From assembly GCF_017873815.1 (NCBI RefSeq), contig NZ_JAGGKQ010000007.1, forward strand, positions 1 through 64,000: a stretch of DNA of 64,000 nucleotides. Reading direction: 5' to 3'. The stretch comes from Halorubrum alkaliphilum (GTDB taxonomy: Archaea > Halobacteriota > Halobacteria > Halobacteriales > Haloferacaceae). The position numbers and the translations under genes are program-made. Below, piece after piece: positions 1 through 56,195 of the stretch (position 1 is its first letter; each line of letters begins with the position of its first letter). A model generated the notes under the pieces. That model searched no databases. It had not been told where the DNA came from and was given only the letters and a program-made list of their open reading frames with translations.

Positions 1-205
1 CGGAGCAGGCTGGGGCTTTGGAAGTGTTCACCGACGATCCGTACTCAACCACTTATAAATGAACAGTTAGAGATGTGGAACTGTTCACCACAGCATCATC
101 TACTTATAAACAGCCGCCAGCAACATCACTAACCCACTTATAAACGCTCACTCCAACGTATTGCGAGACCCACTCCCGATATCACTCAAAAGGCAGTCGC
201 TACCG
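1..205 (+). repeat. Dispersed non-coding repeat, copy 1 (truncated by the window edge)
   Basis: This stretch has no convincing ORF. It matches the 3' parts of copies near 17.3 kb and 56.0 kb in the same order: a GGCTTTGG..GTG block (about 14), a TTCACCG.CGATCC block, ACTTATAAA (about 51), CAGCCGCCAGCA (about 104) and further CACTTATAAAC boxes (about 110-145), ending with GTATTGCGAG. Specific to this copy is an inverted repeat with arms GAACAGTT and AACTGTTC (62-88). The 5' half of the element lies outside the window. Function unknown; the TATA-like boxes could be promoters for the thioesterase gene downstream or for an RNA. Confidence 0.75.
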
Positions 206-2075: not shown

Positions 2076-2150
2076 GGGTCGGTGGTCTAGTCCGGTTATG
2101 ACGGCTCCTTCACACGGAGCAGGCCGGCGGTTCGAATCCGCCCCGACCCA
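2076..2150 (+). tRNA. tRNA-Val, anticodon CAC
   Basis: A 75-nt cloverleaf. The acceptor stem GGGTCGG pairs with CCGACCC and the discriminator is A. The D-stem is GTC/GAC. The anticodon stem GCTCC/GGAGC encloses loop TTCACAC with anticodon CAC, reading GUG. The T-stem GGCGG/CCGCC encloses loop TTCGAAT. CCA is not encoded, as is normal for haloarchaea. A TTTT run (2155-2158) just downstream may terminate transcription. The 3' end is copied again 119 bases downstream. Confidence 0.97.
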
Positions 2151-16772: not shown

Positions 16773-16854
16773 TCGAACGGGTCCGTTGAAACAACTATTA
16801 CGCGACAGCTCTGATTCGGCTCCGGCCCGTATAAGTACGGCAATGATCGATGTC

Positions 16855-17465
16855 GGGAGTGAGTGTATCAGACCGCTGGCGACGAGATCGTATTTAAGGG
16901 GAGTATGAGCGGTGGTGACGATCATTTATAAATAAACACTGCGGTGGCGCGCCCCGGTGAGCGGCCCGAAGGGCCGCGAACCGACGGTGCGAGGTCGCCG
17001 GCGCGACGCGCCGGCTGTCACCGGGCGAAGCCCGGTTGCCCGAGGGACTCTGTCCCTCGCTGCCAGAGGAACCAGAGGTTCCTCGCTGGAGCCCGGAACG
17101 GCGCTTATAAGCGCCGTTCCGGCGAGGCTGGGGAGGTGTGAGGTGCGGTGCGGCTGTGGGGCGGGGTGGGACTCAAAGGGGCAGTCGCGAGGACGAAGCA
17201 CGCTGCAGCAAGCACCGCAGGAACGAGCAGTGAGGGACCGAAGGTCCCTCTGGCAGCCGGCGGCAGAGCCGCCGGCGACAACGCGAGTGACGAGGAGCGC
17301 AGCAAAGCGCGCGAGTCCTCGCGACTGGGGCTTTGGAGGTCGTCACCGATCCGCCACCAACCACGTATACACAGCCGCCAGCACCACCCACATCCGACTT
17401 ATAAACAACCGATCATCCATATCGATATACCTACTCTCGCTGTCGCTCACGGAACGATCCCGTTC
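16855..17465 (+). repeat. Dispersed non-coding repeat, copy 2 (longest copy)
   Basis: The left part (16855-16955: GGGAGTGAGT, GATCGTATTTAA, CATTTATAAAT, GTGGCG) matches copy 3 at about 55820-55915. The right part (17325-17465: GGGGCTTTGGAGGT, CACCGATCC, CAGCCGCCAGCA, ACTTATAAAC, TCGCTCACGGAACG) matches copies 1 and 3. Between them lies a roughly 370-base insert made mostly of perfect short hairpins, much longer than in copy 3. No plausible protein is encoded; the open frame running through it is explained by high GC content. This and its left flank make up the 910-base gap before the Sua5-type gene. Confidence 0.8.
16961..17276 (+). ncRNA. Array of at least eight perfect stem-loops (candidate structured RNA)
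   Basis: Hairpins, arm length and loop: 16961-16977 (7 bp, GAA); 16997-17015 (9 bp around one base); 17020-17036 (7 bp, GAA); 17041-17059 (8 bp, TCT); 17066-17084 (8 bp, AGA); 17093-17122 (perfect 30-base palindrome with CTTATAAG at its centre); 17232-17250 (8 bp, GAA); 17256-17276 (9 bp, AGA). Several are separated by short CTG-containing linkers. Stems differ in sequence but share architecture, and copy 3 has a different hairpin at the same point. That suggests a selected RNA or DNA structure. Whether it is transcribed is unknown. Confidence 0.5.
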
Positions 17466-25565: not shown

Positions 25566-25640
25566 TGGGTTGGGGCGGATTTGAACCGCCGGCCTCCTCC
25601 ATGTCAAGGAGGTGTCATAACCGGACTAGACTACCAACCC
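25566..25640 (-). tRNA. tRNA-Val, anticodon GAC
   Basis: A 75-nt cloverleaf on the minus strand. Acceptor GGGTTGG/CCAACCC with discriminator A, D-stem GTC/GAC, anticodon stem CCTCC/GGAGG with loop TTGACAT (anticodon GAC, reading GUC/GUU), T-stem GGCGG/CCGCC with loop TTCAAAT. It differs from the Val(CAC) gene at 2076 by compensating changes in the acceptor and anticodon stems. CCA not encoded. No intron. Confidence 0.97.
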
Positions 25641-55733: not shown

Positions 55734-55814
55734 GGAACGACTGGCCCGGTATCGGTTAAAAAGGGTCGTGTCGCGCCGTCCACGTCGGATCGTGATCAGG
55801 GATCCGGTAAGCGA

Positions 55815-56195
55815 TGGCGGGAGTGAGTCTCTCAGATCGGTGGGGGCGGGATCGTGTTTAAAAAGACCGTGAGCGGCTGCGACGACCGTTTATAAATGAA
55901 CAACTGGGTGGCGTCGCCGACGCGTAGCGCCGGCTGTAAGCGAGAGCTTCGCTCTCGCTGGAGTCAGGGGGATCTGAGGCGCGGTTGCTGTGCGGGCTGA
56001 GGCTTTGGAGGTGTCCACCGTCGATCCACAGTCGTCGACTTATAAACGAATCAGCTGGGATCTGGACGCATCCCGTACGCGATCGGTTACTTACAAAAAG
56101 CCGCCAGCAACACCGCTATTTCACTTATAAACACTCACTCCGCCGTATTGCGAGACGTACTCCCGGTCTCGCTCACGGAACGGTCCGCAACGGCC
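55815..56195 (+). repeat. Dispersed non-coding repeat, copy 3
   Basis: Left part (GGGAGTGAGT, GATCGTGTTTAA, CGTTTATAAAT, GTGGCG) matches copy 2 at 16855-16955. Right part (GAGGCTTTGGAGGTG, CCACCG.CGATCC, GACTTATAAACGA, AAGCCGCCAGCAACACC, CACTTATAAACA, GTATTGCGAG, TCGCTCACGGAACG) matches copies 1 and 2. In the middle is a different hairpin, AGCGAGAGC-TTC-GCTCTCGCT (55939-55959), where copy 2 has its array. This fills most of the 515-base gap 55734-56248. Confidence 0.8.

Follow-up and report, generated by a model that had tools for sequence, protein, structure and literature searches.

The stretch of DNA analysed here (hereafter the window) comprises 64,000 nucleotides of the genome of Halorubrum alkaliphilum and carries three copies of a dispersed non-coding element, whose features are summarized in Table 1. 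The initial annotation had described the copies as a series of ordered sequence blocks, and inspection of the sequence located all of these blocks, in the order given, in the three copies. The window contains 5 occurrences of the block CTTATAAAC, against an expectation of 0.01, and each of them lies inside one of the copies, including a second box in copy 3 at 56039-56047. The repeat was thus correctly recognized, but its boundaries in copies 2 and 3 were not, and are better placed by an HMM of the ends as shown in Table 1. Copy 1 is incomplete because the contig begins there. Copies 2 and 3 have their ends in common, whereas most of the core is missing from copy 3 (score of 22 bits vs 112 bits for copy 2 with R1, the covariance model of domain 2). 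Copy 2 is flanked by divergent genes and copy 3 by two minus-strand genes; the family lies between genes genome-wide. The sole Rfam matches of the window are tRNA genes at 2076-2150 (+) and 25566-25640 (-).

Table 1. Coordinates of the element copies and their parts in the window
Feature	Position	Strand	Basis
Copy 1, 3' part only	1-188	+	sequence, BLAST, HMM of ends
Copy 1, GGGGCTTTGGAAGTGTTCACCG	12-33	+	sequence
Copy 1, TTATAA boxes	52-60, 103-111, 137-145	+	sequence
Copy 1, 3' terminal inverted repeat	113-188	+	HMM of ends
Copy 1, R1 match	1-33	+	21 bits
Copy 2, complete element, 606 bp	16844-17449	+	paired inverted ends by HMM
Copy 2, 5' terminal inverted repeat	16844-16947	+	sequence, HMM of ends
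Copy 2, 5' boxes	TTTAA 16893-16897, TTTATAAAT 16926-16934	+	sequence
Copy 2, core domain 1 (GCGGTGGCG ... GAGGCTGGGGAGGTGTGAGG), several extra perfect hairpins	16941-17165	+	sequence
Copy 2, core domain 2, GTGGGACTCAAAGGGGCAG(stem) ... (stem')CTGGGGCTTTGGAGGTCGTCACCG	17166-17348	+	R1 112.5 bits, E=2.9e-21
Copy 2, 3' terminal inverted repeat, CTTATAAAC at 17398-17406	17374-17449	+	HMM of ends
Copy 3, ends complete, core reduced, 368 bp	55808-56175	+	paired inverted ends by HMM
Copy 3, 5' terminal inverted repeat; TTTAA 55857-55861, TTTATAAAT 55889-55897	55808-55910	+	sequence, HMM of ends
Copy 3, domain 2 remnant, GGCTTTGGAGGTG at 56001-56013	55966-56020	+	R1 22 bits
Copy 3, 3' terminal inverted repeat, CTTATAAAC at 56124-56132	56100-56175	+	HMM of ends

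The 5' and 3' blocks of the element form inverted repeats, a relation that had previously gone unnoticed. In the source genome (G000), the HMM of the 5' end also recovered the 3' ends in inverted orientation, indicating that the element is bounded by imperfect inverted repeats of about 100 bp. These have the layout TGAGYGATnnCGGGAGTG...TTTAAA...TTTATAAA, and the TTTAA and TTATAA boxes pointed out by the initial annotation mostly fall within them. Both ends could be paired for 37 elements of this genome; these measure 166-797 bp, too short to code for a transposase. The element in Halorubrum consists of the inverted ends, domain 1, domain 2 and at least one iteron of 34 or 57 bp, each with a TTATAA box; six units with a period of 57 bp are found in Halorubrum sp. 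CSM-61, and the 34-bp period in one copy of the source genome. Certain core copies are entirely without inverted ends.

When the results of BLAST, the end searches and the covariance model of domain 2 (54 matches by itself) were merged, the source genome was found to have about 70 loci of the family, intergenic and on both strands, so that the common orientation noted for the three copies holds within the window and not genome-wide. BLAST of copy 3 against its own genome gave 96 matching pieces, with E=5e-38 for the best other copy, and at the DNA level its 3' half has matches in 42 of 53 Halorubrum genomes. A pattern scan showed that the blocks, far from being unique to the window, belong to a family present throughout Halorubrum, and the similarity is not limited to generic promoter sequence. 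The contig starts C7:1, C25:1, C22:1, C24:1 and C31:1 of the source genome lie inside or adjoin an element, and some of these starts lie in long poly-G/poly-C palindromes resembling assembly artefacts. Within the element copies at loci L150, L187, L194 and L340 there are unrelated insertion sequences (IS) or short IS remnants with a CGCTCTT.TGTAG.A.ATTGTTG end, which suggests that the element is a preferred target for other insertion sequences.

The conserved part of the element has a covarying secondary structure. In an alignment of domain 2 from 60 Halorubrum copies (146 columns), RNAalifold predicted 33 pairs, with compensatory changes in 23 of them. By an independent count, 98.3% of the cells pair, compared with 25-43% after displacement of the partners by 1-3 columns, and double changes are seen in 255 cells vs 66 in shuffles. 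Tandem G.A/A.G mismatches are retained in 56 and 55 of the 60 rows, even as the Watson-Crick pairs beside them switch. As a mechanism that perfects palindromes would erase such mismatches, their retention argues for selection on the folding of a particular strand; the complement of this strand forms the less stable fold in 58 of the 60 copies. Domain 1 behaves likewise in its first hairpin, where a nearly invariant G.A tandem is surrounded by covarying pairs (10 of 16). The same fold of domain 2 was recovered from 35 sequences outside Halorubrum, with covariation at 27 of the 33 pairs and 98.4% of cells pairing, values that lean toward the model since the alignment was fitted to it. The consensus of domain 2 in these sequences is GUGGGACUGAAAGGGGC(stem)...(stem')GGGGCUUUC, and its unpaired motifs are conserved across genera. 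Domain 2, within and outside Halorubrum, and the first hairpin of domain 1 therefore show the covariation expected of a structured non-coding RNA family.

Some known motifs were also considered. A kink-turn was rejected for the tandem G.A pairs, as the alignment has no adjacent 3-nt bulge. The motif GTGGGACTGAAAG resembles the 3' portion of CRISPR repeats of haloarchaea, a likeness that was set aside because its letters are accounted for by GAAAG/CTTTC pairing. The conserved G tracts could possibly form a G-quadruplex.

The covariation also bears on the idea that the family is neutral debris of miniature inverted-repeat transposable elements (MITEs), whose near-perfect palindromes are maintained by template-switch repair instead of selection. 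Some of the extra hairpins inserted in the core are indeed perfect palindromes and appear to have been exchanged between copies, as this idea would have it. However, palindrome correction would not yield conserved G.A mismatches beside covarying pairs, unpaired motifs conserved across genera, or the divergent stems with which the two units of a single element each fold on themselves (described below), and we regard this explanation as highly improbable.

The domain 2 model has matches in 299 of the 392 genomes sampled from the class (76%) and in 72 of 86 genera, leaving 24% of the sampled genomes without a match. In a phylum-wide sample, the 40 matching genomes all belong to one order, and there were 0 matches in the approximately 242 sampled genomes of the phylum outside this order. 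The number of matches was 1 to 63 each in 28 chosen genomes. Full or partial matches, all unannotated, were found on plasmids of Halobaculum, Natrinema, Haloarcula and Halobacterium salinarum NRC-1 (a partial match, pNRC200 318650). No match was found in a phage collection or in viral contigs. Domain 1 is supported by covariation in relatives and by a conserved motif directly upstream of domain 2 in four genera outside Halorubrum (genomes G173, G327, G386 and G211); the two-domain core thus predates Halorubrum.

Outside Halorubrum, the unit is often present as a head-to-head pair with a spacer whose length is typical of the lineage: 30-32 bp in G254, a genome of another genus, 20-21 bp in G301 and about 120-240 bp in G173, in which domain 1 can lie within the spacer. 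The stems differ between the two units of one G254 element, which indicates that each unit folds on itself and not with its partner. An autonomous version, in which the two hairpin units would enclose a transposase, was not seen.

The TATA-like boxes have a regular position relative to the core. They start mostly 13-16 nt upstream of the GCGGTGGCG core start; a box lies within 60 nt of the core in 36 of 51 cores of the source genome, compared with 5% of random windows, and a box precedes 69 of 135 cores across the genus. Core copies without a box also exist, for example at locus L340. The boxes may be promoters, as the initial annotation had suggested. In usual archaeal promoter geometry, the distance from the box centre to the transcription start is about 26 nt. 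With this spacing the predicted start would be located within the core's first stem, which makes a simple promoter reading uncertain.

The fixed distance of the box, together with a fold and unpaired motifs conserved class-wide and found in 76% of the genomes sampled, would also suit a multicopy non-coding RNA gene that serves the host, for example a trans-acting, protein-binding RNA, with the transposon ends as a mere vehicle and selection acting on the cell. It would fit this explanation, too, that most Halorubrum termini have lost recognizable outer ends while their interior is still alignable. It is nevertheless rather unlikely in our view, because the copies per genome range from 0 to about 60, the sites are not conserved, 24% of the genomes lack a match, and the units of many G254 copies are only about 30 bp apart, which leaves scant room for a promoter there.

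The gene context, determined from gene calls by a simple codon model, was compared with a role as a bidirectional transcription terminator or insulator between genes. In the source genome, 14 of 36 elements are flanked by convergent genes, compared with 28 of 145 background gaps, as such a role would predict. Outside Halorubrum, however, there is no such bias (2 of 37 single units and 5 of 24 pairs), and divergent gaps are also occupied, as by copy 2 of the window. Since the convergent bias is confined to the source genome, a role as dedicated terminator or promoter is unlikely, and we consider the terminator or insulator explanation very unlikely as a whole.

Comparison of Halorubrum species indicated that the element is mobile. 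For three elements of the source genome (locus pairs L188/L102 and L152/L134, and the second copy of L160 with L050), the orthologous gap is empty in another Halorubrum species, whereas at other orthologous gaps the element is present in both species, sometimes in opposite orientation. Two intergenic gaps (L150/L046 and L168/L094) that hold the element in opposite orientation in two Halorubrum species represent either independent insertion in a hotspot or inversion, and were excluded from the orthologous counts. As the sites are polymorphic between species and the gene context is mixed, the proposal that the element is a chromosome-organising site found no support.

Target-site duplications were found in G254, where perfect 8-bp duplications flank 6 of 14 elements and 2 more have one mismatch; in a control with swapped right flanks, 0 of 182 combinations were perfect. 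The source genome gave only one near-perfect case, TTATAACT/TTATAATT (7 of 8 positions), flanking its best-preserved element (C6:35690-36277). This element has GGCTCTGTTGAAATC at both ends, as does an IS5-family element (NF033579) at C24:37033-38640 of the same genome, the transposase gene of which has an in-frame stop. In G254, the element ends GTGTTCAGATAAG are those of an IS6-family element, and ends of this kind enclose an IS6-family transposase (NCBIfam NF033587) at C3:354537-355225. The element therefore shares its ends with autonomous insertion sequences of the IS5 family in the source genome and the IS6 family in G254. Only a minority of the Halorubrum copies retain IS-type ends, and recognizably similar outer flanks were found for one group of ends in the source genome (18 of 93).

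The IS5-family element mentioned above (L222 2534-4141) also holds, on the minus strand, a gene for a DUF5615 PIN-like protein beside a putative DUF433-type partner, possibly a toxin-antitoxin pair captured in an insertion sequence. A HalOD1-domain gene (PF18545) lies between the same GGCTCTGTTGAA ends at L223 998-1456 (C18:54397-54855 of the source genome) and is another cargo of this end type.

Taken together, it is probable that these loci form one family of gene-free, non-autonomous, transposase-dependent (MITE-like) elements, the conserved part of which is a strand-specific folded nucleic acid. This part is most likely an RNA with two hairpin domains, and single-stranded DNA is the less likely alternative. 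Tandem G.A pairs also form in DNA, and the fold therefore does not distinguish the two. If the folding strand acted as single-stranded DNA, it might provide hairpins on a replicating strand for amplification or be bound by protein in transposition. The hairpins of paired units point outward, as might be expected in that case, and hairpins of single-stranded DNA are used by REPINs and IS200/IS605 elements (PMC3116915, PMC6006769). The conserved unpaired linkers and the two-domain layout nevertheless appear RNA-like, and the ends and 8-bp duplications are of the DDE insertion sequence type. DDE insertion sequences act on double-stranded ends. Action as single-stranded DNA is thus unlikely.

Under the preferred reading, that of a mobile element with a folded RNA, transposases of resident insertion sequences would mobilize the element in trans through the ends it carries. 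The helper ends would be of the IS5 family in the source genome, where the candidate helper gene has the in-frame stop, and of the IS6 family in G254; the same core would have been captured by at least two kinds of ends. Copies would shed their outer IS ends as they age. The folding strand would act as RNA, the A/T boxes may help to transcribe the core, and the structure would be retained because it aids the persistence or spread of the element. That the core constitutes an undescribed two-domain non-coding RNA family, expressed and functional, with up to tens of copies per genome in most haloarchaea, which spreads by taking on the ends of any resident insertion sequences, is our tentative suggestion.

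Rfam 15 gave no relevant match to the element at gathering or relaxed thresholds, and no description was found in the literature on Halorubrum repeats, haloarchaeal MITEs, small RNAs or the motif, in a survey largely of open-access papers; some members may possibly have been described already as MITEs in ISFinder or in subscription journals. A screen of the non-coding RNAs in vesicles of H. volcanii reported no common motif (PMC10927574). The element resembles the MITEs of Haloquadratum walsbyi and other prokaryotes (PMC3119063, PMC10969869) in being multicopy, intergenic and without transposase, and also in its IS-shared ends, target duplication (in G254) and predicted foldable transcripts. 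In those MITEs the fold results incidentally from the inverted repeats of each family, whereas here one covarying two-domain fold spans an archaeal class while the ends vary (IS5 or IS6). By its mobility, including target-site duplication and insertion polymorphism, the element fits the criteria set for MITEs in the Haloquadratum study (PMC3119063); its distinguishing feature is the conserved class-wide two-domain fold.

PATE and SMR of Haloquadratum (PMC3119063) are likewise small non-coding haloarchaeal mobile repeats with palindromes and internal-deletion forms. However, PATEs have neither terminal inverted repeats nor target duplications, and the ends of SMRs match no transposon and are accompanied by no duplication (PMC3119063). 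The element belongs to neither, as it has inverted ends, common to IS5/IS6-family elements, and duplications. REPINs, or REP doublets, share with it two inverted hairpin units and a short spacer typical of the lineage (20-32 bp in G301 and G254), their units being 20-40 bp long with GTAG/CGTC tags (PMC3116915, PMC3733652). The units of the present element, in contrast, are about 125 bp long, with a complex fold and IS6/IS5-type ends. A RAYT transposase is a further mark of REPINs. The BOX elements of Streptococcus pneumoniae are modular and dispersed; the number of their middle iterons varies, and their transcript can fold. By description only, the element is similar to these bacterial elements, which are mentioned in PMC10969869, in its modular iterons and foldability.

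The initial annotation had proposed a small-RNA gene, a MITE or a chromosome-organising site. The first two guesses were each partly right and may perhaps describe one object, mobile and lacking a transposase, whose core is structured and conserved.

The family is a very widespread repeat that is unannotated in haloarchaeal genomes, with covariation of the kind known from RNA genes, and the covariance model could annotate thousands of sites. The family could be used to examine why a complex fold is kept for so long by a mobile element, and provides a natural system for asking how structured cargo is mobilized by archaeal transposases.
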